Source: Halorubrum ezzemoulense DSM 17463
GTDB taxonomy: Archaea > Halobacteriota > Halobacteria > Halobacteriales > Haloferacaceae
Assembly (NCBI RefSeq): GCF_002114285.1
Contig: NZ_NEDJ01000009.1
Span: 1-64,000 of the forward strand
DNA: 64,000 nt
Direction of reading: 5' to 3'
Below, piece by piece: positions 1 to 17,948 of this stretch. A program made the translations under genes and the position numbers. Each line of letters opens with the position of its first letter. The first letter of the stretch is position 1. Under the pieces are notes generated by a model. It saw nothing but the letters and a program-made list of their open reading frames with translations. It was not told where the DNA came from and searched no databases.

Positions 1-189
1 TCGGCCGCTCACTCCGCTCGCGCCCTGCGGTGCTTGCGTCGCCTGCGCCCCCGCGCGACTGCCCCGGCGAGTCCCACCCGCGCGCGCCCGCGCCTCACGC
101 CTCCCCAGCCTCGTCGCTCGCTTCGCTCGCGACTCCCTCGCGCGTGCTCCTCTCGGCCGCCGGAGGCGGCCACTCGGAGGCACGCGCCA
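1..189 (-). repeat. Dispersed structured repeat, copy A (truncated by window start)
   Basis: Read on the minus strand this matches 17611-17811 on the plus strand. Identical blocks lie at 174-189, 134-151, 93-113, 69-75, 54-65 and 23-47, about 99 nt in total. The linkers differ in sequence and length. The linker between the first two blocks is a perfect 7-bp hairpin with a 3-nt loop (155-171, arms GGCCGCC and GGCGGCC). The next linker region can close a 5-bp stem (113-117 with 129-133). Linker length changes are not multiples of three, which argues against a conserved protein. The element probably continues to the left of the window. It lies just 5' of the gene starting at 270. I do not recognise it as a named RNA or repeat family. 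Orientation of any transcript is unknown, so the strand given only marks that it is inverted relative to copy B. Confidence 0.85.
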
Positions 190-269
190 CGGCATTGTGT
201 TGGGTTGTCGAGGGCCCGGCCGCGTCTCGGAGCCGAGGGTTCAACTTCGGGGCCGGCGAACCCCGTCGC

Positions 270-800
270 ATGTACGCGGTCGTCGGCTGCAACGAGTGCG
301 CCAACATGTGGCTGGTCACGGACCCGGAGACGAGCGAGACGGCGAAGTGCTCGCGGTGCGGCAAGACCCACCGGACCGCCAAGCTCAAGCGCTTCTTCGA
401 GTCCGAGGAGCGCGCGGCGGCCCGCCAGGCGCGGTCCGCGCTGCTCGCCAAGAAGCGCGGCGACAGCGCGGCGTTCGCCGAGGTGGACCACGTCGCCGAC
501 CTCGAGGCCGCCGTCGAGGACGCCGGCATCGGCGACCGCGAGTACCTCGAGTCGTCGGGCATCGACGCCGACGCCGTCGACGAGGCCGCCTCGCGCGCCG
601 AGGGCGGCGGGGGCGGCTCCCGGAGCCGCACCGAGGTCGTCCGGGACGCGGTCGACGCCCTCGACGACCCGACAGAGGCGGCCGTCGTGGATCGCGCCGC
701 GGCCGACGGCGTCCCCGCCGACGCGGCCCGCGAGATCCTGACCCGCCTCGCGCACCGCGGCGAACTCACCGAGTCGAACGGGCGGTATCGCCTCCTCTGA
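270..800 (+). CDS. Zinc-finger / winged-helix protein (DUF5817-type, haloarchaeal)
   Basis: This 176-aa protein starts at the ATG at 270. Further upstream start codons would read through the repeat element at 1-189 and are rejected. The N-terminus has two Cys-x2-Cys pairs (CNEC near residue 6 and CSRC near 27) that can hold a structural zinc, then a basic stretch (RTAKLKRFFESEE). The middle is acidic and glycine-rich. The last 60 residues look like a winged-helix fold (DPTEAAVVDRAAADGVPADAAREILTRLAHRG, split here only for reading), ending in the typical NGRYRLL wing. Nucleic-acid binding is plausible but unproven. I recall this architecture as a haloarchaeal family of unknown function. It is followed by an unrelated secreted-protein gene and appears monocistronic. 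Confidence 0.75.
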   Translation: MYAVVGCNECANMWLVTDPETSETAKCSRCGKTHRTAKLKRFFESEERAAARQARSALLAKKRGDSAAFAEVDHVADLEAAVEDAGIGDREYLESSGIDADAVDEAASRAEGGGGGSRSRTEVVRDAVDALDDPTEAAVVDRAAADGVPADAAREILTRLAHRGELTESNGRYRLL

Positions 801-865
801 GCTCGGTTCCAAGCGCAGACGCCGACTGGACAAAGCACTTATATGACGCTCGTGAGGGGTCGCGT

Positions 866-1885
866 ATGGACACCCGCACGGCCCTCCTGGCGGCGGCCGC
901 CGCCCTCCTCGTCGCGAGCGCGGTCGGCGCCGTCGCCGTCCCCGGCGCGATCACCGACCCGCGGGAGACGAACGAGCCGCCCGGCCGGATCGACGTCGCC
1001 GGCGCGACCGTCGCGCCCGGCGAGGTGCGCGGCGAGACCGCCGAGCTCCGGCTCGGCACCGACCTCCGCCACCGCGGCTCGACAGTCGAGAACGTCACGG
1101 TCCGCCACCGCGCGATCGGCAGCGAGTCCGGCCTCCTCGTCGACGAGACCACGGTCGACGTGGGCGACGTCAACTTCGAGGGGGAGCAAACGGTCAACGG
1201 CACGGTCGACGTCGAGCGCGAGGGGGGCTACCGCATCGAGACGGTCGTCTTCGCGGACGGCCAGCGCCGCGAGGAACAGACCACTCGCGTCGGCGGCGTC
1301 GCGGCGCTCACGCCCGACTACGCGGACACGAGGGTCGGCTTCACCGACGGGACGGTCTGGCCGACGGTCGCCGTGAGCGTCACCGAGGCCGACAACGAGA
1401 CGGCGACGCTGTCGGCGTCGATTTCCGTGACGAACCGCGGCGACGAGCCGAGCGACGACGTCGAACTCCGGCTCTACCTCCGGCAGGCGGAGTCGAACGT
1501 GATCGCCGGGGAGGCGACGGAGACCGTCGGCACCGTCCGCCCCGGTCGCACCGACACCGTGACGGCGACCGTCAAGGTGCCGAACGGCTACAACTACTAC
1601 GTCGACGCCGCGCTGTTCGACGACGACGTGCTCGTCGACGAGACGCAGGGCGTCGCGAACCTGAACCCGCAGGAGACCCTCTCCGCGAACGAGACGGCCC
1701 GCGACGTGCAGTTCACCGTCGAGGACTTCGAGCGCGGCGAGGGGGGCGTCGGCGGCGACAGTGCCGGTGACGACGGAGCGACGCGAGACGGCGGCGCCAG
1801 CGGCGACGCGACGCCCGGTTTCGGCCCGCTCGTCGCGCTCGTCGCGCTCGTCGTCACGGCGCTGCTCGCACGGAGGCGACGATGA
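866..1885 (+). CDS. PGF-CTERM-anchored secreted surface protein
   Basis: The 339-aa product has a hydrophobic N-terminal signal segment (residues 1-30, ALLAAAAALLVASAVGAVAV). A long extracellular region follows with several N-x-T/S glycosylation sites, predicted beta-rich. An acidic, Gly/Asp-rich stalk precedes a C-terminal PGF motif, a transmembrane helix and an Arg cluster (TPGFGPLVALV...RRRR). That tripartite tail is the archaeosortase A sorting signal, so the mature protein is expected to be lipid-anchored to the outer membrane face after removal of the tail. The ATG at 866 is chosen because the signal peptide starts there. The stop overlaps the next start by 4 bp (ATGA at 1882), so the two genes are probably translated together. 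The ligand or function is unknown. Confidence 0.85.
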   Translation: MDTRTALLAAAAALLVASAVGAVAVPGAITDPRETNEPPGRIDVAGATVAPGEVRGETAELRLGTDLRHRGSTVENVTVRHRAIGSESGLLVDETTVDVGDVNFEGEQTVNGTVDVEREGGYRIETVVFADGQRREEQTTRVGGVAALTPDYADTRVGFTDGTVWPTVAVSVTEADNETATLSASISVTNRGDEPSDDVELRLYLRQAESNVIAGEATETVGTVRPGRTDTVTATVKVPNGYNYYVDAALFDDDVLVDETQGVANLNPQETLSANETARDVQFTVEDFERGEGGVGGDSAGDDGATRDGGASGDATPGFGPLVALVALVVTALLARRRR

Positions 1886-2355
1886 CTGACGAACCGCCGC
1901 GTGCTGATGCGACCGACGAACCGCCACGTGACGGCCCGAGCGACGACCGCGCGACTGCCGACGGCGACCGCACCCGCGACCCACCACAGCCAATGACAGA
2001 CGACACCGACGCGACCGACCGCACGGAAACGGGTCCCGACCGGACGGACCCGGAAGAGACCGACACGGACTACTGGACAGAGCCGGCCGGCTCCGGCGGC
2101 TTCGGCCGCCTTTCGACCGACGACCTCCGCGGGCTGCTCGACCGCGTCGGGCTGGCAGTGCTGTCGCTGCTCGCGGTCGTGGCTGGCTGGGGGTTCTACA
2201 GCCAGTCCGGCAACGCGATCCGCACGTGGTTCGATCCGGCCTACCAGTCCGTGGCGCTCGCGGTGTTCAACCTCGCGGTCCTGCTCGTCGCGCTCGCGGG
2301 CGTGGCCCACCAGCTCCGTCGGATCCGCTCGGCGGAGTCCGGCGGATCCGAGTAG
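1882..2355 (+). CDS. Small integral membrane protein, coupled to the PGF-CTERM gene
   Basis: The product is 157 aa. Residues 1-75 are very acidic, Thr/Asp/Pro-rich and low in complexity, and are expected to be disordered. Two transmembrane helices follow (about 87-108 and 123-142), joined by a short loop with SQSGNAIRTWFDP, and a basic-acidic tail ends the protein. It starts inside the stop codon of the upstream surface-protein gene (ATGA overlap), which suggests translational coupling and possibly a shared role at the envelope. An internal ATG at 1993 (MTDDTDATD) is an alternative start that would drop 37 low-complexity residues. I do not recognise a characterised family. Confidence 0.75.
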   Translation: MTDEPPRADATDEPPRDGPSDDRATADGDRTRDPPQPMTDDTDATDRTETGPDRTDPEETDTDYWTEPAGSGGFGRLSTDDLRGLLDRVGLAVLSLLAVVAGWGFYSQSGNAIRTWFDPAYQSVALAVFNLAVLLVALAGVAHQLRRIRSAESGGSE

Positions 2356-2394
2356 ACCGGCGCCGGAGACAGCCGGCGACGACGAGCCGGCCCG

Positions 2395-2784
2395 CTACTC
2401 ATCGGGGATCTGCTCGGTGTCCGTCGGGATTTGTTCCACCTGCCCCGCGAGCGTCGCAGCGTCGCCGGCGACGGTGGAGGGCTCGACGCCGGCCTCGCCC
2501 GCGACCAGCCTGACGTGTGCGGCGAGCAGCGCGAGCGCGCGGAGTCCCGCCCCCTCCGGGTCGTCGTCGGTGCGCTGGGCGAACGTGGTGTCGACCTCGC
2601 CGTCGCGGACGACGCCGACGTGGACCGCGTCGATGTCGTCGCCGTCGAGCAGGTCGCGGGCGCGGGCCAGTTCTGCCTCGAAGTCGTCGCTCGCGGGGGC
2701 GTCCGCACCGCCGGCGGCCGCGGATCGGTCGTCGTCGCCGGCGGCCTTGGAGACGGACTCGTCGGAAGCGGGGTCGTCGCTCAT
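2395..2784 (-). CDS. Haloarchaeal hypothetical protein, 129 aa
   Basis: An acidic soluble protein with a disordered N-terminus (residues 1-32, Asp/Ala/Ser-rich). The folded part has alternating short strands and helices (DIDAVHVGVVRDGEVDTTF, then LRALALLAAHVRLVAGEAG). No catalytic motif or metal site is visible. It lies 118 bp downstream of the Rieske gene on the same strand, so it could be co-transcribed with it. No cytochrome b gene occupies that place. Function unknown. Confidence 0.65.
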   Translation of the reverse strand: MSDDPASDESVSKAAGDDDRSAAAGGADAPASDDFEAELARARDLLDGDDIDAVHVGVVRDGEVDTTFAQRTDDDPEGAGLRALALLAAHVRLVAGEAGVEPSTVAGDAATLAGQVEQIPTDTEQIPDE

Positions 2785-2902
2785 GTCATTCCCTCGGACG
2801 AGCGAGGTGAAAAGCGCGGCGACGACTTACACGAGACATCCGAGGGACGAGCGGAGAAGAGGGCGGAGCCGCGACAGGGCGGGGTTACTCCTCGGGCTGG
2901 GA

Positions 2903-3742
2903 TTACTCGTCGGGTCGGGGACGCGCGATGAACAGCGCCTCCTCGATGGTGAACGGGTCGTACGTCGACTGGTGGCAGACGCAGTACGAGCCGTCGGCGG
3001 CGTCGTAGCGGGCCGACTCCTCTAGCTCCTTGTAGCCCGGAATACAGCAGAAGTGGGTACAGACGTTGAGGTACGCCATGAACCCCTGATCGGTCGAGGC
3101 CTGGAGCCACTCGTCGTTCTGGGCCGCCTCCTCGATCTCCGGCGAGCGGATCACGATCGCGTTGAGGTTCGTATCGGAGTCCTCGGAGCGCCACGTGGTC
3201 ATCGCCGGCTTGCCGACGCCGTCGCTGCCGATCCCGTTCCCCCACTCCTCGTAGTCGTCGAAGTCGTCGATGTGGATCCGGTCGCCGCCCGAGTAGGTGT
3301 TCGACTGCCAGTCGTACGGCGGGCCGCTCGCGGCGCGGAACAGGTTGTCGGACTCGAAGTTCGGCTGGACGTTCTCCTGCGACTCGACGCCGCAGTACTG
3401 GAACCACGCGCCGGAGTAGGTCGTCCCGCCGAGCTCCTCTTGTGCGACCTCGATCTCCTGTCCCTCCTGGGTGATGGTCGTCGTCTCGGGCCAAATGCCC
3501 TCAATGTACCCGTCGTCGTTGACCTGAACCGGGATCTGCGGGAGCCCGCGGGGCGCCGGACCGCCGGTCTGCGCGATGGTCTTCGCGATCGTCGACCCGC
3601 CGCCGACGCCGCCGGCGGTCGTCAGGGTGTTCACGGTCGCCGACCCCATCGCGCCGACCCCAGCGAGGGCCGCGCCGCCGACGACGCCTTTCACGAAGCG
3701 TCGCCGCCCGGACTCAGACGGATACTTATCGGACGCACTCAT
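2903..3742 (-). CDS. Rieske [2Fe-2S] protein, Tat-exported
   Basis: The 279-aa protein starts at the ATG at 3742, giving a twin-arginine signal (R13-R14-R15-F-V-K followed by a hydrophobic stretch to residue about 40) that exports the folded iron-sulfur protein. The cluster-binding boxes are near the C-terminus. C228-T-H230 supplies one Cys and one His ligand, and C254-x-C256-H257 supplies the others. C233 and C256 are placed for the usual disulfide. About 120 acidic residues (roughly 80-200) lie between the signal and the Rieske fold, longer than in typical bc1 Rieske subunits. The family normally passes electrons from menaquinol to cytochrome c or halocyanin in a bc1-like complex. No cytochrome b gene is adjacent here, so the partner is uncertain. 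Confidence 0.9.
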   Translation of the reverse strand: MSASDKYPSESGRRRFVKGVVGGAALAGVGAMGSATVNTLTTAGGVGGGSTIAKTIAQTGGPAPRGLPQIPVQVNDDGYIEGIWPETTTITQEGQEIEVAQEELGGTTYSGAWFQYCGVESQENVQPNFESDNLFRAASGPPYDWQSNTYSGGDRIHIDDFDDYEEWGNGIGSDGVGKPAMTTWRSEDSDTNLNAIVIRSPEIEEAAQNDEWLQASTDQGFMAYLNVCTHFCCIPGYKELEESARYDAADGSYCVCHQSTYDPFTIEEALFIARPRPDE

Positions 3743-3953
3743 GCTCGCTACTGAGGTTGGATCGGTAAAAAGGGTGACGAACCCTCCACAGCGGCGAGAA
3801 TCGGAGCCATTCCGGGTCGACGGCGACGCTTCGGAACCGGGCCGCGCTCGGGACCGACGAGTCGCCGCCGCCATCGCCTCCGGCCGGGGTCGGCAAGGAA
3901 CGTTCGTGATCGAATTTACTCGGAACCGGGGCAAGCATTCGTCTAGCCCACGG

Positions 3954-3960
3954 ATTTAAC
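3954..3960 (+). promoter_or_regulatory. TATA-like box of ppc
   Basis: The sequence ATTTAAC lies 26-32 bp before the ATG at 3986. This is the distance expected for a haloarchaeal leaderless transcript. Confidence 0.55.
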
Positions 3961-3985
3961 CGATCCCGACCGAACTGTCTGTGGT

Positions 3986-6688
3986 ATGAAGTTGCATAAT
4001 CGGGACGTGCGGACGGACGTTCGAGAACTCGGGGCGCTGGTGGGAGACGTCCTGGCCGCACAGGCGTCGACGGACGCGTACGAGACGGTCGAGACGCTGC
4101 GGAACGCGGCGATCGATTACCGGCGGGGAGACGCCGCGGACCGGGCCGCCCTCCACGAGGCGGTCGCCGACCTCTCGACGACACGCGAGGAGGTCGTCGC
4201 CCGCGCGTTCACGACGTACTTCGAGCTCATCAACCTCGCCGAGGAGCGCGAGCGCGTCCGCGCGGTCCGGAACGCCGACGACGGGACCGCCCTCCACGAC
4301 TCCTTCGACGCGACGATAGCCGAGTTCGCCGAGGCCGGCGTCGACGCAGACGAACTGGAGGAGCTGCTCGCCGACGTGCTCATCGAGCCGACGTTCACCG
4401 CTCACCCCACGGAGGCCCGGCGGTCAACCGTGAAGTCCAAGCTCCGCTCGATCGCGAACCACCTCGGCGAGCTCGACGAGCGCAACCTCACCGACCGCGA
4501 GCGGCGCGCCGTCTGGCGCGACGTCACCGCCGAGGTAACCAGCCTGTGGGGCACCCGACAGGTCCGCCAGCGGGCCCCCGAGCCGGAAGACGAGGCGCGC
4601 AACGTCCAGTGGTACCTCGAGAACACGCTGTTCGACGTCGTCGGTGACGCCTACGAGGAGTTCGAGGAGACCATCTCGAAGGAGTACGACGACGTCGACT
4701 GCCCCAAGCTCTTCGAGTTCCGCTCGTGGGCGGGCTCCGACCGCGACGGCAACCCGTTCGTCACGCCCGAGGTGACCGACGAGACGCTCGAACGCCAGCG
4801 CGAGGTCGCCGTCGAGAAGTACCGAGACCGCTGTAAGCGGCTCTCCGCGGTGCTGAGCCAGGACGGCGACCGGTACGCCGACGGCGACGCGCTCGCGGAG
4901 TCGCTCGCGGCCGACGCCGAGCGGTTCCCGACCGTCGTCGAGGAGGCGCGCGAGCGGTACCCCGACGAGCCGTACCGGCAGAAGCTCCGGCTGATGCGCG
5001 AGCGCCTCGACCGCGTCAACGACGTCCGGCCGGGCGAGTACCCCGACGGCGACGCGTTCCTCGACGACCTCGACGTGATCGCCGAGTCGCTCCGCGAGGA
5101 CGGACAGGAGTCGGTGCTGGAGTCGTTCGTCGAGCCGTTCCGCCGGCAGGTCGACACGTTCGGGCTCACGCTGGCGTCGCTCGACCTGCGCGACCACCGC
5201 GAGAACCACACCGAGGCCGTCGCCGAGGCGGTCGCGGCCGAGGGCGTCGACTACGCCGAGATGGACGAAGACGAGCGCGTCGACTTCCTCACCGAGGCGA
5301 TCCTCCAAGAGGACCCGGTCGTCGACGTCGACGAACCCGGCGACGTCTCCGAGACGACGGAGCGCGTCCTCCGCCGGTTCGCGTCGTTCGCGGGCTGGCA
5401 GGACGAGTACGGCCAGCAGGCGATAGACACCTACTGTATCTCGATGACGGAGGAACCCAGCCACGTGCTGGAGGTGCTCTTCCTGGCCGACCAGGTCGGC
5501 GTCGTCTCCTTACCCGACCACTGCGCGGTCGACGTCGTCCCGCTGCTCGAGACCGAATCGGCGCTCAACGGGGCCGAACGCATCCTCGGTACCCTCTTCG
5601 AGAACGAGGCGTACGCGGCCGCGCTGAAGGCACGCGACGAGGTCCAAGAGGTCATGCTCGGCTACTCCGACTCCAACAAGGAGAACGGATTCCTCGCCGC
5701 GAACTGGGACCTCTACGAGAACCAGCGCCGGATCGCCCGGTTCTGCCGCGAGGAGGAGGTCACCCTCCGGCTGTTCCACGGCCGCGGCGGCTCCATCTCG
5801 CGCGGCGGCGGCCCGATGAACGAGGCGCTGACCGCGCTCCCGAACGAGACCGTCACCGGACAGGTGAAGTTCACCGAGCAGGGGGAGGCGATCGCCGAGA
5901 AGTACGCCAACCCGCGGATCGCCGAGCGCGAGCTCGAACAGATGCTGGACGCCCAGATCCGCGCCCGGAAGGAGGCGAACGAGGAGCCGGTCGAGAACGT
6001 CCCGGACCGCTGGGTGGAGGCGATGGAGGTCATGGCGCCCGCCGCCCGGGAGACGTACCGGGAACTGCTGAACAGCGACGGATTCGTCTCCTACTTCGAG
6101 CAGGCGACGCCGATCAGCGTCGTCGAGGACCTCAACCTCGGCTCCCGGCCCGCCTCCCGCTCCGGCGAGCGCAGCGTCGAGGACCTCCGCGCGATCCCGT
6201 GGGTGTTCTCGTGGACCCAGACGCGGCTCATCCTCCCCGGCTGGTACGCGATCGCCTCGGGGATCGACGCCTACCTCGACGAGGTCGGCGAGGAGGAGGG
6301 GATGGAGACGCTCCGCGAGATGTTCGACGAGTGGCCGTTCTTCCGGACCACGCTCGACAACGCCTCGCTGGCGCTCGCGCGCACTGAGCCGGAAATCGCC
6401 GCCGAGTACGCCGACCTCGCCGACGACGAGCTCCGCGAGCGCTTCTTCCCCGAACTCGTCGACGAGTACGAGCGCGGCCGCGAGCTAGTGTTGTCGATCA
6501 GCGGCCGCGACCAGCTGCTCCGCCGCGAGTGGCTCGAAGAGAGCCTCGACCGCCGGAACCCCTACGTCGACCCCCTGAACCTCCTCCAGGCGAACCTGCT
6601 CGGACGCACCCACCGCACCGACGAGGAGGAGCGCACCCTGCGGCTCACCGTCAACGGCATCGCCGCCGGGATGAAAAACACCGGATAA
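3986..6688 (+). CDS. ppc: Phosphoenolpyruvate carboxylase
   Basis: A 900-aa bacterial-type PEP carboxylase (PEPCase 1 family). It makes oxaloacetate from phosphoenolpyruvate and bicarbonate to refill the citric acid cycle. Signatures are FTAHPTEARRS around catalytic His140, YSDSNKENGF, and the active-site loop FHGRGGSISRGGGP around residues 597-609. The C-terminal NLGSRPASR and the terminal Asn-Thr-Gly (MKNTG) match the conserved family tail, so the gene is full length. It stands alone between the divergent Rieske gene and a convergent MOSC gene. The start is supported by the TATA-like box at 3954. Isocitrate dehydrogenase in the same window belongs to the pathway it feeds. Confidence 0.97.
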   Translation: MKLHNRDVRTDVRELGALVGDVLAAQASTDAYETVETLRNAAIDYRRGDAADRAALHEAVADLSTTREEVVARAFTTYFELINLAEERERVRAVRNADDGTALHDSFDATIAEFAEAGVDADELEELLADVLIEPTFTAHPTEARRSTVKSKLRSIANHLGELDERNLTDRERRAVWRDVTAEVTSLWGTRQVRQRAPEPEDEARNVQWYLENTLFDVVGDAYEEFEETISKEYDDVDCPKLFEFRSWAGSDRDGNPFVTPEVTDETLERQREVAVEKYRDRCKRLSAVLSQDGDRYADGDALAESLAADAERFPTVVEEARERYPDEPYRQKLRLMRERLDRVNDVRPGEYPDGDAFLDDLDVIAESLREDGQESVLESFVEPFRRQVDTFGLTLASLDLRDHRENHTEAVAEAVAAEGVDYAEMDEDERVDFLTEAILQEDPVVDVDEPGDVSETTERVLRRFASFAGWQDEYGQQAIDTYCISMTEEPSHVLEVLFLADQVGVVSLPDHCAVDVVPLLETESALNGAERILGTLFENEAYAAALKARDEVQEVMLGYSDSNKENGFLAANWDLYENQRRIARFCREEEVTLRLFHGRGGSISRGGGPMNEALTALPNETVTGQVKFTEQGEAIAEKYANPRIAERELEQMLDAQIRARKEANEEPVENVPDRWVEAMEVMAPAARETYRELLNSDGFVSYFEQATPISVVEDLNLGSRPASRSGERSVEDLRAIPWVFSWTQTRLILPGWYAIASGIDAYLDEVGEEEGMETLREMFDEWPFFRTTLDNASLALARTEPEIAAEYADLADDELRERFFPELVDEYERGRELVLSISGRDQLLRREWLEESLDRRNPYVDPLNLLQANLLGRTHRTDEEERTLRLTVNGIAAGMKNTG

Positions 6689-6702
6689 CCCGGGGTCGGT
6701 CG

Positions 6703-7179
6703 CTACCAGACGATCTCGTCGCCGACCGCTACCGTTCCCGACTCCACGATGCGGGCGTCGAGCCCGCCGCGACCGTCGAGCGCGGTCACCGCGTCGGACT
6801 CCTCCGCGAGATCGGCCATGTAGCCGCAGGGCTCGCAGCGACCCGTCCCCTCGACGGTCGCTTCGCCGACCCGGAACCGCTCGCCGACGAGCTCCCCGAG
6901 GTCGACACCACGCGTCGTGACGTTGCGCCGGTGCGCGCCCGCCTCTAGGTCGACGCCGTGTTCGGCGGCCGCGGCCGCAAGCGTCTCGGCCTCAATCAGC
7001 GTGATGTCGCTCGGCTCCAACTCCGACTGCTCGTTGTAGATCCCGTCGCCGTCGAAGTAGCGGTCGCCGCGGAGCCCGCGGTCCGCGACCGCCTCGACCG
7101 CCTCCCGGGGCTCCGGGTCGCCGCCCGTCCCAGAGGCGACGTGAATTCGTTCGACCGTGCCGACGCGTGACTCCGTCAT
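6703..7179 (-). CDS. MOSC domain protein
   Basis: The 158-aa protein is a single MOSC (molybdenum cofactor sulfurase C-terminal) domain. Characteristic pieces are GLRGDRYF near residue 35, the basic RRNVTTRGVDL segment in the middle, and the conserved cysteine within GRCEPCGYM in the C-terminal part, where related proteins hold Moco or a sulfur. It may take part in molybdenum-cofactor handling or sulfur transfer. The window also has a MoaE gene, but 40 kb away. The gene converges with ppc (14 bp between stops). The 258 bp upstream (7180-7437) is AT-richer around 7275-7325 and presumably holds its promoter. Confidence 0.85.
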   Translation of the reverse strand: MTESRVGTVERIHVASGTGGDPEPREAVEAVADRGLRGDRYFDGDGIYNEQSELEPSDITLIEAETLAAAAAEHGVDLEAGAHRRNVTTRGVDLGELVGERFRVGEATVEGTGRCEPCGYMADLAEESDAVTALDGRGGLDARIVESGTVAVGDEIVW

Positions 7180-7437
7180 GCGCGACTCACGCCGGCACTC
7201 CGAGACGCGGGATCAAGAAGGTAGCGGGGGAGCGACCGAAGGAGAGCGTCCGAGGAGAAGAAGGCCGACGCGTATGTGTCGATTTACCCGATATCAGATT
7301 TTGTATAGCGGTGTTTGGTTTACGACGTGCGCAACGGGCGAACTCGCGAGACGAAGCAGCCGCTTGCGAGACGCGTGCGATGTGACCGAGAAAGCAGTCG
7401 CTACGGCGGTAAAGCGGCCAGAAACAGAGATATCGGT

Positions 7438-7893
7438 TTACGCGTAGCGTTCGAGTTCCGGACGGTCGAGGTCCTCGAAGACCTCGGTCGCGACCTCGGA
7501 GAGGAACGCCTCGCCCTCGTCGGAGAGGCGGCGACCCTCGCCGGAGGCGGTCGTGACGAGCCCGTCCTCTTCGAGCGCCTGGAGCGACGAACGGATGAGC
7601 TTACGCGAGCCCCCCTCGTGCTCGCCGGGGCGGACGATGTAGCGATTGGAGCCGCGCTTCTTCGAGCCGTACTCGGTCGCGAGCCGCTCGATGCCAATCG
7701 GCTCGTTCTGCGCGACCTTTCGCAGGAGGCTCGCGGATCGGACGTACCAGAAGTCGTCCTGCTCCGGCGGGAGCTCCTTGCCTGCGCCGCTTTTGGCGAA
7801 CTCGACCCAGTCGGGCTCTTCGATCCGGTCCTCGAGGCGGGCGGCGACGGCCTCGATGAGGTCGTCGGCCGGCACGTCGTAGATGGTCACCAT
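7438..7893 (-). CDS. rps19e: 30S ribosomal protein S19e
   Basis: The 151-aa protein matches archaeal/eukaryotic S19e over its full length. It starts MVTIYDVPADDLI, contains WVEFAKSGAGKELPPEQDDFWYVRSAS (written in two overlapping parts in the family signature), then GSKKRGSNRYIVRPGEH and a winged-helix C-terminus ending LERYA. S19e binds the small-subunit head and is needed for subunit maturation in eukaryotes. The ATG at 7893 is chosen because it gives the conserved N-terminus. An in-frame upstream start would add 12 non-conserved residues. The gene lies alone, not in a ribosomal protein operon. Confidence 0.96.
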   Translation of the reverse strand: MVTIYDVPADDLIEAVAARLEDRIEEPDWVEFAKSGAGKELPPEQDDFWYVRSASLLRKVAQNEPIGIERLATEYGSKKRGSNRYIVRPGEHEGGSRKLIRSSLQALEEDGLVTTASGEGRRLSDEGEAFLSEVATEVFEDLDRPELERYA

Positions 7894-8029
7894 TGTGTGT
7901 CGATTCACGCCAGCGTCGTTTAAAAGCATCGTATCGCGAACGACCCGTGTGAGCCGTTTTCACGGGATTGCGGGCCGCTGCGGATGACTCACGGTTCGGT
8001 GAGCGTGCCGGTCAGCGGCGGTCGCGGCG

Positions 8030-9373: not shown

Positions 9374-9485
9374 ACACGGACGTTCATGCGGCCGGCATAT
9401 GGCTTTGTCGATGAGAAGTACGTTGATTGTGGAACACAGGCGGAGACTCTAGCGAGGAAGCGGGATGCGAGCGCGGCGATCGGCC

Positions 9486-11039: not shown

Positions 11040-11498
11040 AGAGAGAACAGTCAGGTCAACTATTTCCGGTGCGGTATTTTATTATGCGGTCGCAGATATC
11101 AACAGCGATAAGCGTAGAAACTGAGACTTACTGCTACCCAACTAGCCGTTGGTAGCCCACTGAGAGTTCATCGCTGTTCCGGCGTGCCTCGTATCAGACT
11201 GTGACGTTCTGTTGGAATCGATTCTTTTCAGATCGAGAGAGGTATCTGAGTCCTATTCAGTCAGTGTTCGCGAACCGAGTTTGGTGTCGACTTCCTGCTA
11301 AATAACGATTTGATCCCAGCCAATTTATTTCAAGATCAGCCGTTTTTACGCATAGTCTCAGCTACTCGGTTAGATCTTAATACCGCGTTCTTTACCGCGG
11401 TCGCAATTGATCGCTCGTGAACTTGAATTACCTTTTGATAAAATACGTCGGTCATGGAGAGATGGCCCGATATAATCCCGTCAGCTGAGGCCGTTCGG
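11040..11498. other. Low-GC intergenic stretch between two pilin-like genes
   Basis: No convincing gene is found in these 459 bp. GC is far below the surroundings: 11221-11280 has 27 G+C of 60, while 12361-12420 has 43 of 60. It contains an imperfect hairpin near 11134-11157 (CTACCCAAC ... GTTGGTAG) and several stop codons in all frames. The low GC continues into the 3' part of the gene that ends at 11499. This suggests acquired or decayed DNA. Confidence 0.6.
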
Positions 11499-13343
11499 TT
11501 AGAGGGTCAGCAGGAATGTCTTACTGCTCCCATCACTAAATTGGAGAGTTAGTTCGACGTTTGCCTTGTTCATGTTCGCGTTCTGGTTACTGTCCCTGAA
11601 CTGGCCGAGCCGGACGTCCGCGCTGTTTCCGCCCGTGATCTGGAGCGTAGGGCTCAGCGTCGCCGTAGTGCCGACATCAATTTGCCCGCTGACTAACGTG
11701 GTGTCAGTTCCAGCATTGACGAACGTGTCACCTTCGGTGTCTTCGACGTTATCGACATCGGTATTCCCTGTGTTGGTCTCAACCGACTCAACTGTGATGT
11801 CGGTTATTTCGATGCTTTGTGTGTCCGGACCGGACGATCCGATGGTGAACGTGACATCGTTGTTTCCACCCGCCGTGTCTTCTCCGGTTACAGTCGTGCG
11901 GTCGGCCATCGTTCCTTGACCGCTCTCGATGACTCGCACCAGGAGTCTATCGACATCGTCACCCGCTGCTGCGTACACGTGGAATTCATCACCGACGTCC
12001 GCGTTGTTCGGGGAGAAGACGAGGGTGTCAGAGCCGTCGTGTTCTGGAGATGATAGTGGGTTCAAACTCGGAGAGCCCCCGTTTTGTAGCGGTGCGAAAG
12101 AATAATCTATTGTGGCGTCGTTAATCAGATCCCCGCTCTGTCGGTCAAATATCTGAACTTCGAGATCCGTATCGGTGTTCTCAGTGGCGTTCACCGGCGA
12201 CGATGGTATCCACCTGACATCGAACGTCTGATTTCCGGCTGTGCCGCCGCCCTCTGACACGTCGAAGGTGACCCGCTCGTAGGTCGGCCCGCCGGTCCCG
12301 TTGATCGTCGCGATGAGGGCCTCGGTCTCGTTAACTTCGAAGAACGCGCGCCCCCCGTCGCCGGTGGTGCGGTTCGCGCCGTCGAACGCGACCGTCGCGT
12401 CGGGCACCGGGTTGTTGTACCGGTCGCGCACCTCGACTGTGACCGTCTCTCCGACCGCGGCGCTCTCGGAGCCGACCGGCACGACGTACGCCGGCTCCGT
12501 CTTTCCGGTCGCGTCGAGCGACACCTCGGAGAGCGCCAGCCGATAAGGATCCGAACCGTTCGCCAGCGTGACGTTGATCGCCTCGCCGGTCGCGTTCCGC
12601 GTTGCGGTCGCGCCCGCCGGGAGCGCACCATTCCAGCGCTCCGCGAGGGCGGAGGCGTTCCCGACCGCGGTCGGGAGTTCGAGGGTGATCTGCCCGCCTC
12701 TCGGTTCGAGCGGAACCGTGGTGTCGCTCGCGGAGACGGCGCGCGGGTCGACGCTACGCGGAACGACGCCGGTTTCCGACACCGAGCCGCTCAGCGCGGT
12801 CAGCGAGATCCGCTCCTCGGAGACGACCGTCTGGCCGGTCCGGAGCAGGACCGCGTCGTCGAACTCGGCGGCGACGACGGAGTGCTCGTAGACGAGTTCG
12901 GGGGCGCCGTCGAACTCGTTGTACTCCGCGTCGTAGCGGAGCGAGCGCGTCTCGAACGAGGGACTCGTGTTCCAGAAGTCGCGGGCGTTCTGGTGGGCGC
13001 CGTCTCCGACCGTCGCGTTCAAGACCCGTATCGGCCCCGTCGGCTCCGTTTCGAGCGACCCCGACACGGGCGGCGGGTTGATGAAGAACGTCCGGGCCGG
13101 GTACCGCGTGCCGAGGCGGACCTGCGTCGACCCGGTCGAGCCCGTCGAACCGGCGCGGAGGACGTCGTTGCGGAGGTCGCCGAAGTCGTCCTCGACCTGC
13201 TGGCTGTGTTCGAACTCGACGTTCGCGTTCTCCGTCGGGACGACTTGAATCTGGAAGATTCCGAGCGCAACGATCAGGAACCCGAACAGGATCACCGTCC
13301 CGACCACGACCGACTGGCCTCGACGGTCGCGACTGAATCGCAT
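11499..13343 (-). CDS. Large pilin-like secreted protein with Ig-like domains
   Basis: The 614-aa product starts at the ATG at 13343, where a class III signal peptide is complete (RDRRG/QSVVVG, cleavage after Gly9) and is followed by a hydrophobic helix (VILFGFLIVALGIFQI). The extracellular part has repeated beta domains. A Big-type domain lies around residues 278-345 (VTVEVRDRYNNPVPDATVAF), with a second region around 360-480 and a Thr/Asn/Asp-rich C-terminal domain (about 490-614) with many N-x-T sites. The coding sequence is a mosaic: the 5' two-thirds is GC-rich like its neighbours, the 3' third (about 11499-12180) is low in GC. An upstream in-frame extension to 13532 encodes only the tandem repeat at 13431-13526 and is rejected. 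It is likely a surface filament or adhesion protein of unknown partner. Confidence 0.8.
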   Translation of the reverse strand: MRFSRDRRGQSVVVGTVILFGFLIVALGIFQIQVVPTENANVEFEHSQQVEDDFGDLRNDVLRAGSTGSTGSTQVRLGTRYPARTFFINPPPVSGSLETEPTGPIRVLNATVGDGAHQNARDFWNTSPSFETRSLRYDAEYNEFDGAPELVYEHSVVAAEFDDAVLLRTGQTVVSEERISLTALSGSVSETGVVPRSVDPRAVSASDTTVPLEPRGGQITLELPTAVGNASALAERWNGALPAGATATRNATGEAINVTLANGSDPYRLALSEVSLDATGKTEPAYVVPVGSESAAVGETVTVEVRDRYNNPVPDATVAFDGANRTTGDGGRAFFEVNETEALIATINGTGGPTYERVTFDVSEGGGTAGNQTFDVRWIPSSPVNATENTDTDLEVQIFDRQSGDLINDATIDYSFAPLQNGGSPSLNPLSSPEHDGSDTLVFSPNNADVGDEFHVYAAAGDDVDRLLVRVIESGQGTMADRTTVTGEDTAGGNNDVTFTIGSSGPDTQSIEITDITVESVETNTGNTDVDNVEDTEGDTFVNAGTDTTLVSGQIDVGTTATLSPTLQITGGNSADVRLGQFRDSNQNANMNKANVELTLQFSDGSSKTFLLTL

Positions 13344-13366
13344 TGTGCGGTGTCGACGCCGAGCGG

Positions 13367-13375
13367 GTATAAAAG
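13367..13375 (-). promoter_or_regulatory. TATA-like box of the large pilin-like gene
   Basis: On the minus strand CTTTTATAC lies 24-32 bp before the ATG at 13343. This is the expected position for a leaderless transcript. It also supports 13343 as the true start. Confidence 0.6.
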
Positions 13376-13430
13376 TCTCCGTCGACCTCTCAGTCACGAT
13401 ACTCGGACGACAACTGCGGAGACCGGGGAT

Positions 13431-13526
13431 CATCCGCCCGTCCGTCGCTCGGTTCATCCGTTCGCCCGTCGTTCGGTTCATCCGTTCGCCCGTCGTTCGG
13501 TTCATCCGCCCGTCCGTCGCTCGGTC
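13431..13526. repeat. Four tandem 24-bp units
   Basis: Units begin with CATCCG at 13431, 13455, 13479 and 13503. The two inner units are identical to each other. The two outer units resemble each other more than the inner ones (CCGTCGCTCGG in place of CCGTCGTTCGG). The fourth unit encodes the last residues and stop of the 63-aa membrane protein on the minus strand, so the array looks like serial duplication of that gene's 3' end. It lies upstream of the pilin-like promoter at 13367. Confidence 0.9.
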
Positions 13527-13693
13527 AGCCACGCCGACCCGACCGCCACGACGCCAGCGAACCCGCCGAGCAACACCGCCTGCGTCCAGTTGAAGCCAAG
13601 CAGCGTCCCGGCGACGAGTGTCACGAGGAGGAACGCGACGGTGAGCGCACCGAGCGTCGAACCGAAACCGGCGGAGGCGTCAGCGTCGGTCAT
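13502..13693 (-). CDS. Small two-helix membrane protein
   Basis: The 63-aa protein has a short acidic N-terminus and two transmembrane helices (about 15-34 and 38-55, TLGALTVAFLLVTLVAGTLL and VLLGGFAGVVAVGSAWL), ending in the basic TERRTGG. The ATG at 13693 gives a compact protein; longer upstream readings run into the divergent promoter region. Its last codons and stop are the fourth unit of the 24-bp tandem array. It could share a transcript with the pilin-like gene downstream, but that gene has its own TATA box. Family unknown. Confidence 0.65.
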   Translation of the reverse strand: MTDADASAGFGSTLGALTVAFLLVTLVAGTLLGFNWTQAVLLGGFAGVVAVGSAWLTERRTGG

Positions 13694-13879
13694 AGTCGAA
13701 CGTCGCGGCCTCGGGCGATAAAACGGCCCGATCCGGTGGAGTCGGTGGTCCAGCCTGAGGGGGACCGCGGCCGTTCGATCGCTGTTGTAAATCGCATAGC
13801 GCGATATCAAATGTGTTTGCGGCGTGATCCCCGCCCGCCGACCGGTCCGTTTTTGCGCGCGGCCGCTGTTGCGGCGCGT

Positions 13880-14605
13880 ATGGCGAAACAGCCGCACCTG
13901 CTGGTCGAGGAGGGCGATGTCCACGAGATCGCGGTCATCCCGGGCGATCCGGGTCGCGTCGACCGGATCGCCGACCTGTGTGACGACAGCGAGGTCGTCG
14001 CGCAGAACCGCGAGTACAAAGTCGTCAACGCGACCTACGACGGGGTCGACCTCACGATCTGCTCGACCGGGATCGGCTGCCCGTCGGCCGCCATCGCCGT
14101 GGAGGAGCTCTCGCGGGTCGGCGTGGAGACGTTCGTCCGGTGTGGCACCTGCGGCGCGCTCCAGCCGGAGATGGAGGTCGGCGACATGGTCGTCGCGACG
14201 GGCGCGGCCAAGGAGGAGGGGACGAGCAAGCGGTACGAGTCGGCGAACTACCCGGCGGTCCCGGACTACGACGTACTCACCGGCTTGGTCGATGCGGCCG
14301 AGGACAACGACGAGGAGATCCACGTCGGCCCCATCGTCTCGGACGACGCGTTCTACAACGAGGACGACGAGTACGTCGAGGACTGGAACGACGCGAACCT
14401 GCTCGCGATCGAGATGGAGGCGGCGACCGTCTTCTCGCTCGCGCGGCGCAAGGGGCTCGCGGCGGGCGCCATCTGTACGGTGGACGGTAACCTCGTCGCG
14501 GGCACGCAGAAGGGGGCAGACTCCGACGACGAACTACCGGAGAAGGCGAAGGACAACGTCGAGCGCGCGATCCGGATCACGCTGAACGCGATCACCTCGC
14601 TGTAA
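13880..14605 (+). CDS. udp: Nucleoside (uridine-type) phosphorylase
   Basis: The 241-aa protein is a full-length member of the purine/uridine phosphorylase (PNP/UDP) family. It has VIPGDPGRVDRIADL near residue 19 (phosphate binding), STGIGCPSAAIAVEEL near 63, and AIEMEAATVFSLARR near 180 carrying the Glu-Met-Glu ribose-binding motif. Members cleave nucleosides with phosphate to a base and ribose-1-phosphate, for salvage or for pentose degradation in archaea. Base preference cannot be fixed from sequence alone; uridine is the usual annotation. The ATG at 13880 gives the conserved start MAKQPHLLV. It converges with the UPF0179 gene. Confidence 0.9.
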   Translation: MAKQPHLLVEEGDVHEIAVIPGDPGRVDRIADLCDDSEVVAQNREYKVVNATYDGVDLTICSTGIGCPSAAIAVEELSRVGVETFVRCGTCGALQPEMEVGDMVVATGAAKEEGTSKRYESANYPAVPDYDVLTGLVDAAEDNDEEIHVGPIVSDDAFYNEDDEYVEDWNDANLLAIEMEAATVFSLARRKGLAAGAICTVDGNLVAGTQKGADSDDELPEKAKDNVERAIRITLNAITSL

Positions 14606-14632
14606 GCGAAGGGAGCGGCCCCGCGGCCGGAC

Positions 14633-15079
14633 TCACTCCTCCGCGCGGAACTCCACGAGCGTCAGGTCGCGGTCGAGCGCGCACGTCTCGTGCGGGGGGT
14701 CGCCGAGCACCTGATCGATGACGCGCTCCTCGTCGAAGTCGGCGCCGTCGGGGACGCAGTAGCCGTGGCTCGGGCACTCGGTGTGCGGGCAGGGACCGGC
14801 GAGCGACGCCTTGCTCCCGGCGTACGCGCGCTTCGACGGGACGTTCGCCGGGACCGACGCGGGCTCGACCTCGACCGCGCGGACGCCCGCGTCGTGGACG
14901 GCGCAGTCGAGCGTCTGGGCGTTCTCGCGGATGTCTGTCACCCGGTACCGCTTCCCCTCGGTGAGGTTGAGACACTGGCCGCGGTAGGGACACCCTTCGC
15001 AGCCGGCCGATTCCCCTTCGTAGACGAACTCGCGGCCCACGTCCGCGAGCCGAGTCCCGATGAGCGTGACCGTGGTCAT
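14633..15079 (-). CDS. UPF0179 family cysteine-rich protein
   Basis: This 148-aa archaeal protein has Cys clusters that suggest bound metal: CEGCPYRGQC near residue 27, and CPHTECPSHGYC near 97, followed by another Cys in HETCAL. The family is widespread in Euryarchaeota and uncharacterised. It is transcribed head-to-head with tmcA (106 bp between starts), which could mean a shared regulatory region. The start at 15079 gives the conserved MTTVTLIGTRLA; longer readings overlap the divergent promoter. Confidence 0.85.
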   Translation of the reverse strand: MTTVTLIGTRLADVGREFVYEGESAGCEGCPYRGQCLNLTEGKRYRVTDIRENAQTLDCAVHDAGVRAVEVEPASVPANVPSKRAYAGSKASLAGPCPHTECPSHGYCVPDGADFDEERVIDQVLGDPPHETCALDRDLTLVEFRAEE

Positions 15080-15185
15080 GCCGGGAGTGACGCGCCGCGC
15101 GGCCGTAAGCCTCCCGCCTTTGCCGGCGTCGCCGGAGCGTCGTGAACGAGCAACTCGCCTCGGCGACGCGCGGAGGGGAAGACAC

Positions 15186-17573
15186 ATGACCGCGCCTCGG
15201 CAACCACGAGCGGAGATGATCGCGGCGGTCGCGCGCGAGCTGCGCGCCGAGGCCGAGCGGACGAACGAGCGGCGCGTCCTCGGGCTGGCGGGCGACCGCG
15301 ACCGGGGAACCGACGCCGCCTACGACGCGATAGTGTCCCTCGGCGTCGACGACGAGGCGGTCTCGCTCGTCTCGACCCGGGAGGGGTTCCGGTTCGAGGA
15401 GCACCGCCCGCGGAGCGCCGACGAGCTGCTCGGACGCACCCGCGAGGCGGTCGTCCTCGACTGCCACGGGCAGTTCGTCCCCAACGCGCTCGGCCGAGCG
15501 GTCGGCGCCGTCGACGGCGGTGGGCTGCTGATCCTCCTCACACCCCTCCTCGACGACTGGCCCGGGGTCCGCGACCGCTTCGACGACTCGCTCGCGGTCC
15601 CCCCGTACGGCGTCGGCGACGTGACCGGGCGGTTCCGCGAGCGCCTCGTCTCGACGCTCCGGACGCACCCCGGAATCGCGGTCGTCGCACTGGGGGACGA
15701 CCCCGCGGGCGACGCCCTCGAACGAGACGGCCTGACCGCGGAGAAAGGCGACGAGCGCGGCGGTGGGGACGAACGCGGTGGCGAGGGCGAACCCGACGAC
15801 GCGGACGACCGCGACGCGCCGAGCCCGCCGCCGGGTGCGGCGTTCCCCGCGGCCGCGTACGGCGCCTGTCTCACGGACGACCAGGCCCGCGCGGTGCGGG
15901 CCTTCGAGGCGCTCGCCGACCCCGGATCGGCGGTCGTCGTCGAGTCCAACCGCGGGCGCGGGAAGTCGAGCGCGGCCGGGATCGCGGCGGGCGCGCTCGC
16001 GCTCGGCGGCGCCGACGTGCTCGTCACCGCGCCCGCGTTCCGGAACGCCGCGGAGGTGTTCGCGCGTGCCCGAGAGCTGATCGAGAGCGAGACCGATTGG
16101 GAACGCGACGGGATCGACCGCGACGGCGATGCGGACGACCGCGACCTCCGGACGCCGGCGGGAGGTTGGGTACGCTTCCTGCCGCCGGCGGCCGCCGCGG
16201 CGGCGGCGGGCGAGGCGGACGCGGCGGTCGTCGACGAGGCGGCGGCGCTCCCGGTGCGGCTGCTGGAGGGGTTCCTCGACGCGCCCGCGGTCGCGTTCTG
16301 TACGACGGTCCACGGCTACGAGGGGGCGGGCCGCGGGTTCGCGGTCCGGTTCCGGGAGCGGCTGGTCGGCTCGCGGTTCGCGGTCCGAGACGTGCGGCTC
16401 GACGAGCCGATCCGGTACGCGCGGAACGACCCGGTGGAGGCGTGGGCGTCGCGGGCGCTCCTGTTGGACGCTCGCCCGGCGGTCGACGACGCGGTCGCGG
16501 ACGCGTCGGTCGACGACGCGACGTATCGGGCGCTCGACCCGGAGGAACTGCGCGCGGACGAGACGCTGCTCGGCGAGGCGTTCGGGCTGCTCGTCACCGC
16601 ACACTACCGGACGGAGCCGAACGACCTCGCGCGGCTGCTCGACGCGCCGAACCTCGTCGCGCGCGCGCTCGTCGCGGACGACCGGGTCGTCGCGGTCGCG
16701 CTCCTCGCGCGGGAGGGCGGGCTCGACCCCGAGACGCGGCGGCGGATGTACGAGGGCGAGCGCGTCCGCGGCAACATGGTGCCGGACGTGCTCACGAGCC
16801 AACTCCGCGACGAGGACGCCGCCGCCCCGCGCGGCCTGCGAACGGTCCGGATCGCGACCCACCACGCGCTCCGGGACGCCGGGTTCGGCTCGCGGCTGCT
16901 CGACGAGGTCCACGCGGAGTTCGGGGGGCAAGTGGCGGGCGACGGCGAAGCGACTCACGACGACGGAGAGCCGGTCGACTACTTCTCGGTCGGCTACGGC
17001 GCGACGCCGCGCCTGCTCCGCTTCTGGAAGCGCGCGGGATACCGGATCGGCCACCTCTCGACGAGCCGCAACGACGCCTCGGGGGAGCACTCCGCGATCA
17101 TGCTGCGCCCGGAGACCGCGGCCGGGCGCGACCTGCTCGCCCGCCACGCGGTCGCCTTCCGGGACCGCGAGCGCGACGGGCTCTCCGACGCGCACCGCGA
17201 CGTCGACCCGGACGTGATCCGCGGCGCGCTGGGTGCGTGTTCCGCCTCCGTCCCGGTCGATCTCACCGAGACCGAGTGGCGCTCCGTCGTCGGGGCGTCG
17301 GTCGGGCCGGGGATGTACGACAGCGCGCCCGGCGCGTTCCGCGACCTCGCGCTCGCGGCGCTGGTCGAGGGGACCGACCTCGACGACCGGGCGGAGCGCC
17401 TGCTCGTTCGGAAGGTCCTCCAAGGCCGGCCGTGGGAGGAAGTCGCCGACGACCTCGGCTTCGCCTCGACGAGCGCGTGTATGCGGGCGCTCGGCGACGC
17501 CTACACCCCCCTCGTGGAGCGGTACGGGACCGACTTCGCGCTCGCGGAACGGGAGCGGTTCACCGGCGAATGA
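15186..17573 (+). CDS. tmcA: tRNA/RNA cytidine acetyltransferase TmcA
   Basis: The 795-aa enzyme makes N4-acetylcytidine in RNA using ATP and acetyl-CoA. The RecD-like helicase module has a Walker A at SNRGRGKSS (Lys260, Ser261) and a Walker B-like VVDEAAALP. The GNAT acetyltransferase part includes VRIATHHALRDAGFGSRLL and YGATPRLLRFWKRAGY, and a C-terminal RNA-binding tail follows. An acidic Gly-rich linker (about 183-218) separates the N-terminal domain from the helicase. The ATG at 15186 is preferred. An in-frame start at 15060 would overlap the start region of the divergent UPF0179 gene and add 42 non-conserved residues. In archaea ac4C occurs in both tRNA and rRNA. Confidence 0.95.
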   Translation: MTAPRQPRAEMIAAVARELRAEAERTNERRVLGLAGDRDRGTDAAYDAIVSLGVDDEAVSLVSTREGFRFEEHRPRSADELLGRTREAVVLDCHGQFVPNALGRAVGAVDGGGLLILLTPLLDDWPGVRDRFDDSLAVPPYGVGDVTGRFRERLVSTLRTHPGIAVVALGDDPAGDALERDGLTAEKGDERGGGDERGGEGEPDDADDRDAPSPPPGAAFPAAAYGACLTDDQARAVRAFEALADPGSAVVVESNRGRGKSSAAGIAAGALALGGADVLVTAPAFRNAAEVFARARELIESETDWERDGIDRDGDADDRDLRTPAGGWVRFLPPAAAAAAAGEADAAVVDEAAALPVRLLEGFLDAPAVAFCTTVHGYEGAGRGFAVRFRERLVGSRFAVRDVRLDEPIRYARNDPVEAWASRALLLDARPAVDDAVADASVDDATYRALDPEELRADETLLGEAFGLLVTAHYRTEPNDLARLLDAPNLVARALVADDRVVAVALLAREGGLDPETRRRMYEGERVRGNMVPDVLTSQLRDEDAAAPRGLRTVRIATHHALRDAGFGSRLLDEVHAEFGGQVAGDGEATHDDGEPVDYFSVGYGATPRLLRFWKRAGYRIGHLSTSRNDASGEHSAIMLRPETAAGRDLLARHAVAFRDRERDGLSDAHRDVDPDVIRGALGACSASVPVDLTETEWRSVVGASVGPGMYDSAPGAFRDLALAALVEGTDLDDRAERLLVRKVLQGRPWEEVADDLGFASTSACMRALGDAYTPLVERYGTDFALAERERFTGE

Positions 17574-17610
17574 GCGGATCGGCTACGGCCGCTTGCTAAC
17601 AGGTCTGCGG

Positions 17611-17811
17611 TGGCGCGTGCCTCCGAACGCCCGTAGGGGATGAGGAGCACGCGCGAGGGACACAGTTCGCGCTCGGAGAGCGCGAACCGCGAGGCTGGGG
17701 AGGCGTGAGGTGCCGTGCTGTGCGGTCGGGGCGGGACTCAAAGGGGCAGTCGCGAGGCGAACGCAGGCGACGCAAGCACCGCAGGGAAGAACGCGGTGAG
17801 CGACCGAGTGA
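17611..17811 (+). repeat. Dispersed structured repeat, copy B
   Basis: This is the inverted partner of 1-189. Blocks identical to copy A are at 17611-17626, 17643-17660, 17690-17710, 17733-17739, 17743-17754 and 17762-17786. The linker after block two is a perfect 9-bp hairpin with loop GGA (17666-17686, arms TTCGCGCTC and GAGCGCGAA), different from the copy A linker but at the same place. The element may extend to about 17883, where a perfect 6-bp hairpin sits (17869-17883, GATCCA/ATG/TGGATC); that part cannot be compared because copy A is cut by the window edge. It occupies the gap between the convergent tmcA and ferredoxin genes. Confidence 0.85.
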
Positions 17812-17948
17812 AGCGCACGGCGAGCGTCCGGCGGCCTCGCGGCTGGGGCTTCGGAGGGGTTCGCAGTCGATCCAATGTGGATCAATCAGAACACGGGGAC
17901 TCGGTCGACAGAGACCACACGGCCTCAAAAACGACCACTTACAGCCGA

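Follow-up and report, generated by a model that had tools for sequence, protein, structure and literature searches.

A previously uncatalogued structured repeat family of haloarchaea with two copies in a Halorubrum ezzemoulense contig

The window analyzed here (64,000 nucleotides of Halorubrum ezzemoulense DSM 17463, starting at the first base of contig NZ_NEDJ01000009.1) contains two copies of a repeated element, both located outside genes, as had been noted in a preliminary description of this DNA. Copy A, delimited by BLAST and covariance-model matches, occupies positions 1–193 of the minus strand and corresponds to element positions 1–210 of 254; its 3′ part is lacking because the contig begins at window base 1. 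Copy B is full-length (element positions 1–254) and lies on the plus strand at 17607–17855, where the covariance-model match scores 162 bits. The placement given earlier (A at 1–189, B at 17611–17811, perhaps to 17883) thus stands in outline, while the ends had to be redrawn, with a degenerate tail following copy B to ca. 17890. Six blocks of 17, 19, 21, 7, 12 and 25 nt (101 nt in total) are common to both copies in the same order on opposite strands, within about one base of the lengths first reported (16, 18, 21, 7, 12 and 25 nt). Patterns derived from these blocks match only A and B within the window, with 0 to 0.2 matches expected by chance.

Three hairpin domains make up the element, which is ca. 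250 nt long. P1 and P2 are variable; P3 forms a long stem interrupted by a GGG/GGG internal loop and a G-A mismatch ladder. In copy A (minus strand), sequence and consensus structure place P1 at 140–187, with outer arms at 180–187 and 140–147 and an inner hairpin at 155–171, and the P2 hairpin (GTCGCGAGCGAAGCGAGCGAC) at 113–133. A purine-rich, unpaired block, CGAGGCTGGGGAGGCGTGAGG, follows at 93–113 and is matched exactly at 17690–17710 in copy B. In the latter (plus strand), P1 spans 17613–17654, with the outer stem GCGCGTGC/GCACGCGC supported by sequence and structure, and sequence and fold place the P2 hairpin at 17665–17687. The P3 core (AAAG-GGG-C ... G-GGG-CTT(C/T)), defined by sequence, structure and distribution, extends over 17740–17852; its long stem pairs 17747–17757 with 17835–17845 and encloses the G-A mismatch ladder. 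Comparison of 95 copies showed that many others carry a tail unit in the form of tandem repeats, of which a degenerate remnant (GGNGTTCGCNGTCGATCC...) is present after copy B at 17856–17890 of the plus strand.

Both perfect hairpins initially described are present, at 155–171 (GGCCGCC-GGA-GGCGGCC) and 17666–17686 (TTCGCGCTC-GGA-GAGCGCGAA). The GGA loop they appeared to share is a strand coincidence: since copy A sits on the minus strand, its loop reads TCC on the element's own strand. The long hairpins do lie in different linkers with counterpart stems, being P1 in copy A and P2 in copy B, and each copy has both domains. What was called “swapped hairpins” reflects the recurrence of a small repertoire of hairpin cassettes at different sites. 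Taken modulo 3, the lengths of 18 full copies give every residue, and the reading frame is not conserved, as had been proposed from A and B, which rules out protein coding.

Single-sequence folding of the element is weak (z of −1.0 for the plus strand and −2.8 for the minus strand), and covariation was therefore used as evidence of the fold. In an alignment of 18 copies, 38 out of 65 pairs showed double compensatory change; shuffled alignments gave 20.6 ± 2.3, none of 500 reached 38, and the signal was lost once pairing partners were slid by 1–3 columns. When the compensatory-change test was extended across more than 20 genera, 24 of the 27 pairs showed such change, and at nearly every P3 position all four Watson–Crick types occur. 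Compensatory changes thus exceed composition controls, and their pattern is like that seen in bona fide structured RNA families of Rfam. We conclude that compensatory change maintains the fold of the P3 core and, in Halorubrum and other genera, those of P1 and P2 as well. The earlier impression of a structure kept while its letters change extends across copies and genera.

To determine the folding strand, G-U and A-C appositions were compared in 193 P3 stems placed by flanking anchors outside the stems, a first version on model-fitted alignments having been dropped as biased. The ratio of G-U to A-C was 76:20 (p = 7e-9), and 34:13 after thinning (p = 0.003). The plus strand is therefore the one that folds, as RNA or as single-stranded DNA; tolerance of G-U above A-C is typical of structured RNA families and is compatible with single-stranded DNA too. 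No G-U bias was detected in a small sample of P2 stems, and an attempt to anchor P1 was abandoned as it caught many chance matches.

The H. ezzemoulense genome yielded 46 BLAST matches and 74 covariance-model matches, 71 of the latter at E ≤ 1e-4; the preliminary description had made the element's reality depend on such further copies. Relatives are present in 131 of 195 Halobacteriales genomes, about two thirds of those sampled, and some haloarchaea are without the element. The order-wide part is the P3 core, and a model of it found no match in 393 genomes sampled outside Halobacteriales. The element is almost absent from plasmids and absent from phage and viral collections. Many copies are truncated, and deleted sites also occur. 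In the draft assembly, the element coincides with contig ends. As suspected earlier, the element belongs to no named family: no Rfam family reached the gathering score with any copy tested, nearby tRNAs being the only matches at that level, and the best sub-threshold match was a trypanosome snoRNA (E = 0.39). The portions consulted of papers on haloarchaeal sRNAs and vesicle RNA (PMC7002113, PMC5892119, PMC10927574) and of a 104-motif survey (PMC2864571) do not describe it.

Signs of movement come from closely related copies. Within one genome, three copies (L302, L303 and L304) of ca. 450 bp have identical cores and 97–99% identity over 444–474 bp, unrelated flanks and inverted repeats at their boundaries; about 50 copies in this genome are bounded in this way. 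In another species, a relative, a complete 643-bp inverted-repeat unit with GGCTCTGTTGAAA ends surrounds the element. Some copies have thus recently moved to new places, and one sub-family, whose terminal inverted repeats are clear (GATAGCGGGAGTNNGTATTGCA, outer GGCTCTGTTGAAA), did so as units of ca. 0.44–0.64 kb. Most copies in the H. ezzemoulense genome, A and B included, have no recognizable inverted repeats, and the mobile unit is therefore proven for one sub-family only. A check for target-site duplications found one complete unit flanked by GAGTTTTT/GAGCTTTT (7/8 identical); the inner ends of the inverted-repeat copies showed no direct repeat consistently. The GGCTCTGTTGAAA ends, which we take to resemble IS6-type ends, also bound other cargo; no transposase was found between matched GGCTCTGTTGAAA ends, nor was an autonomous transposon with matching ends. 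In genome G028, two inverted repeats separated by 2.7 kb were considered as the ends of an autonomous element, but they are independent repeats that enclose only ordinary host genes. Like MITEs, the element is short (a ca. 250-nt core or 440–643-bp units), non-coding and dispersed in many copies (71 in H. ezzemoulense).

Orthologous sites differ between species in occupancy and orientation. Site B is occupied in 23 of 30 cases and empty or partly deleted in the others, and at site A the element is found in both orientations among species. Sites C and E are empty in the window and occupied in relatives; the orthologous intergenic positions without an element here are 23557–23608, filled in four of the five relatives compared, and 36295–36370, filled in three relatives. 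The median identity of site-B orthologues (0.829) is no higher than that of own-genome paralogues (0.830), which suggests that copies exchange hairpin cassettes.

Among known systems, the BOX/RUP/SPRITE repeats of Streptococcus pneumoniae (PMC3049150) are likewise short, dispersed and intergenic, built of modular hairpins with a predicted RNA structure, over-represented between convergent genes (as the element studied here is, p = 1e-6) and inferred to be mobile in a non-autonomous way. They differ in sequence and host domain and are confined to some streptococci, whereas the haloarchaeal element spans a whole archaeal order with invariant motifs and strong compensatory evidence. The bcr1–bcr3 repeats of the Bacillus cereus group (PMC6542083) are similar too: they measure 100–400 bp, reach 130 copies in a genome, lie mostly on the chromosome and have mobile features. 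Their TTTAT motif, tied to mobility, recalls the TTTATAA motifs that adjoin many Halorubrum copies; however, they are unrelated in sequence and limited to one species group, while some copies here are bounded by inverted repeats. Also found in a haloarchaeon are the transposase-free MITEs, PATEs and SMRs of Haloquadratum walsbyi, where the consulted part of PMC3119063 reports small elements nested in palindromes and target-site clustering; a structured covarying interior is not described in that part, and the distinction is one of description, not of sequence.

Taken together, the data make it probable that A and B belong to a haloarchaea-wide family of structured, interspersed mobile repeats that are non-coding and non-autonomous. 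Being dispersed, intergenic, convergent-biased, structured and variable in presence, the family can be compared to BOX or bcr1 as a kind, not a homology group, and by this analogy would be older and wider than either. Both halves of the first guess, “structured RNA or hairpin-based mobile repeat”, proved right, the fold being conserved and strand-asymmetric and the element mobile. Host transposases would move the units as DNA, copies may then swap cassettes through recombination or gene conversion, and the folded plus-strand RNA, read through from neighboring genes, could make insertions tolerable or protect the transcript, as proposed for BOX. Against the mobile repeat count the order-wide covarying fold, which exceeds what a neutral MITE should keep, the want of recognizable inverted repeats in most copies, the failure to find an autonomous transposon whose ends match, and the constant site of the core within a genus in low-copy genomes.

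It is possible, though less probable than the reading above, that the P3 core is a haloarchaea-specific functional RNA class that has a protein partner or an activity of its own, mobile as a DNA-transposon passenger and diversifying by cassette exchange. Rather unlikely, in our estimate, is a new trans-acting structured ncRNA class centred on P3, ancestrally present in a single or few copies and amplified in Halorubrum partly inside MITEs. Conservation of P3 sequence and fold across the order, down to one- or two-copy genomes, the plus-strand G-U bias, the invariant unpaired blocks, the near-absence from plasmids and the absence from phage and viral collections argue for such a class, and in the low-copy genomes the core occupies the same site within a genus, which also fits a resident RNA gene. 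However, no gene neighbor or site is conserved across families, truncated copies and deleted sites are many, and some haloarchaea manage without the element. Nor is there a consistent promoter: about half the Halorubrum copies carry a TATA-like TTTATAAAT ca. 16 nt upstream, none of the distant copies that were inspected does, and a start 25–27 nt downstream of it would land in the P1 5′ arm, so this partial motif is left unexplained.

A single-stranded-DNA element related to PATEs or IS605-type elements, with the folded plus strand serving as substrate of a Y1 transposase, would account for the strand asymmetry equally and agrees with the TTTATAA motifs, with the loops of P1 (mostly triloops, GNA on the plus strand in 31 cases vs 7 complements) and with the known presence of PATEs in Haloquadratum. 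We nevertheless hold it to be improbable, since recent copies have terminal inverted repeats, which PATEs lack according to the consulted part of PMC3119063, the whole interior is conserved and not the ends alone, and no element copy lies within ca. 1.5 kb of the two Y1 genes of H. ezzemoulense. Least probable of all is that the element belongs to the upstream gene, acting in cis in its 3′ untranslated region as a terminator or RNA-stability module. Although it often starts no more than ca. 50 nt from a stop codon on its own strand and tandem copies in low-copy genomes are mostly sense (8/9, counted by hand), Halorubrum tandem positions are divided into 24 sense and 17 antisense, 14 copies lie between divergent genes, site A holds both orientations and no T-run terminator was found at the element.

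The repeats described here form a dense, order-wide structured family previously uncatalogued, being in neither Rfam nor the literature searched, and it can fill dozens of intergenic regions per genome. It offers a natural data set for studying why RNA-like folds persist for so long in mobile repeats, and species with low copy numbers allow a clean deletion test. Should the core turn out to function as an RNA, this class of RNA would be new for archaea, and it would be among the rare RNA genes that travel inside transposons.

Copies A (1-193, minus strand) and B (17607-17855, plus strand) share six exact blocks of 17, 19, 21, 7, 12 and 25 nt, in the same order and on opposite strands, which is far above chance expectation in the window. 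Both hairpins named in the preliminary description are present in the two sequences; the GGA loop that they were said to have in common has no meaning, since A lies on the minus strand and its loop reads TCC on the element's strand. Copy A has no 3' end because it is cut by base 1 of contig C155, of which the window is bases 1-64000.

The family of these two copies is dispersed through the genome. Copy B used as a BLAST query matched 46 places, a clear consensus emerged from 18 full copies aligned by MAFFT irrespective of structure, and R1, a covariance model of the whole element, retrieved 74 places (71 with E<=1e-4). Some ten of these matches lie less than 500 bases from a contig end (elements are found at the ends of C4, C13, C38, C63, C78, C79, C83, C99, C153 and C155), which makes the family a probable contributor to the break-up of the draft assembly into 155 contigs.

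Read 5' to 3' on its plus strand, the element begins with P1 (GCGGTGGCGCG), whose outer stem encloses an inner variable hairpin, followed by GCGCGAGGGA and by P2, a variable hairpin usually starting with GTC and ending with GAC. An unpaired block, CGAGGCTGGGGAGGCGTGAGG, lies 3' of P2 and leads through a G-rich linker to GGGACTCAAAGGGGC, then to the long P3 stem and on to CTGGGGCTTTGG. In the inner part of P3, G-A mismatches divide a ladder of pairs into 2-bp steps; P3 is closed by AAAG/CTTT, next to which is an internal loop, GGG/GGG, that is symmetric. P3 is followed in many copies by a tail of ~65 nt (GGCTGGGGCTTTGGAGGTGTTC...TTTATAAGCGAGC), often in tandem, which at loci L067, L096, L135 and others forms a minisatellite-like array. 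The tail units are near-identical within one element, with a constant part of 27 nt and a middle of ~35 nt that differs among elements. At locus L019 of this genome (contig C144, 62028-62285), P3 has its loop part in inverted orientation inside its own stem, as if by recombination between the two stem arms.

A second, smaller repeat, a double hairpin of ~50 nt (for example TCGCCGGCGC-GTA-GCGCCGGCTGCCAGAGGGACC-TTC-GGTCCCTCGCTGG), is nested within P1, P2 or P3 hairpins (loci L003, L014, L029, L212, L227, L230, L233, L235 and L237) and sometimes lies outside element cores, as at L272. These double hairpins are reminiscent of the Haloquadratum SMR elements, which target palindromes. In P3 at site B, other hairpin modules, e.g. 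TTCACGAGAGC..GCTCTCGTGAGCCAATCAGAACGCTTCGCGTTCTGATGA, are inserted (L227, L230) and recur in different species.

The covariation anticipated for a structured element was borne out. In the structure-free alignment, double compensatory changes occurred at 38 of 65 pairs, against 20.6+-2.3 in shuffles (0/500 shuffles reached the observed value), and the signal was lost when partners were slid by one to three columns. A comparison of 26 P3 cores, drawn from over 20 genera, showed double changes at 24 of 27 pairs. Strand preference was assessed on 193 distinct P3 stems located solely by the unpaired anchors flanking each side; all four Watson-Crick pairs are used at nearly every position. G-U and A-C mismatches are expected to be equally frequent if no single strand is constrained. 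As can be seen from the counts, G-U exceeded A-C (76 vs 20, p=7e-9; 34 vs 13, p=0.003, with similar stems removed). Thus, the plus strand of the element folds, as RNA or single-stranded DNA. Positions 1-5 of the P1 inner stems showed the same bias (8 vs 1). P2 alone, with few wobbles, showed no such bias (25 vs 28). Three-base loops predominate in P1, GNA loops being commoner than their complements, a pattern that fits either molecule.

Matches were obtained in all 34 genomes of the same genus, the majority reaching the maximum score that the search allows, and throughout Halobacteriales (131 of 195 genomes; 44 of 66 genera). Halorubrum accounts for most of the named records with matches, and Haloparvum, Halobellus and Halorussus are also represented. 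R2, a covariance model of the P3 core, matched 67 of 393 genomes of the phylum, all within the order and none outside it. The invariant blocks GGTGGCGCG, GCGAGGGA, TGGGGAGG, GGGACTGAAAGGGGC, GACGYAAGCACCGCA, GAGGAGCGCAGCGAG and GGGGCTTT are retained in distant copies, whose stems are wholly different, and several low-copy genomes have the P3 core alone. In some genera, P3 cores form head-to-head inverted pairs spaced 30-300 bp apart (L439, L442, L448, L449), and in one case two congeneric species have such a pair at a common site. No match to the element was found in phage records and viral contigs, and plasmids yielded only four, all partial.

Gene context was determined for 92 copies with a simple codon-bias gene finder. 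The flanking genes were convergent at 37, tandem at 41 (24 sense, 17 antisense) and divergent at 14, convergent sites being over-represented (odds ratio 3.8, p=1e-6). Both presence and orientation vary between relatives. Site B, flanked by tmcA and a gene for ferredoxin, holds a copy in 23 of 30 species, always in the orientation of tmcA; in others the site retains remnants of a deletion or is an empty gap of 50 bp. Site A lies upstream of the gene at 270-800, and the element there is opposite to this gene in eight species and in the same direction in nine. Two more orthologous sites lack the element in the window and are occupied in relatives.

Copies are homogenised: median identity is 0.829 among site-B orthologues, whose flanking genes are collinear, and 0.830 among copies of our genome, and P2 hairpins belong to a small number of types that recur. 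The simplest reading of this equality and of the recurring types is cassette exchange between copies; alternatively, repeated replacement at favoured sites would account for them.

One sub-family has moved recently. Genome G015 contains three copies with an identical core, 97-99% identity over 444-474 bp and unrelated flanks, the common stretch being bounded by the inverted repeat GATAGCGGGAGTNNGTATTGCA. The latter occurs ~100 times in G015, often paired ~420 bp apart, and is far rarer in the other species searched; the reversed-pattern control gave zero occurrences. More near-identical pairs with unrelated flanks were found at other loci. Beyond this repeat, some copies continue outward as far as a second inverted end, GGCTCTGTTGAAA, and locus L389 in genome G144 is a complete 643-bp unit with ends of this type and the structured element inside. 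Since GGCTCTGTTGAAA-bounded units of 660-850 bp at L388 and L395 enclose unrelated small genes for putative membrane proteins in place of the element, these ends, which may be of IS6 type, behave like a general carrier. In our own genome, inner inverted repeats are present at only one copy, on contig C74.

Neither Rfam nor the open-licence papers searched contain a description of the element, and a subscription journal may have carried an earlier one. Of all the observations, the conservation of the P3 core throughout the order is least well explained by a plain parasite model, and because of it the reading of the element as a class of RNA, though unlikely, keeps about a fifth of our belief. 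The element is best read as a structured, non-autonomous interspersed repeat that differs from BOX, bcr1 and the Haloquadratum repeats in its order-wide spread, the strength of its covariation and its carriage inside inverted-repeat units. A host transposase would move it in trans, and, by analogy with BOX elements (PMC3049150) and bcr1 (PMC6542083), its folded transcript may render insertions tolerable.
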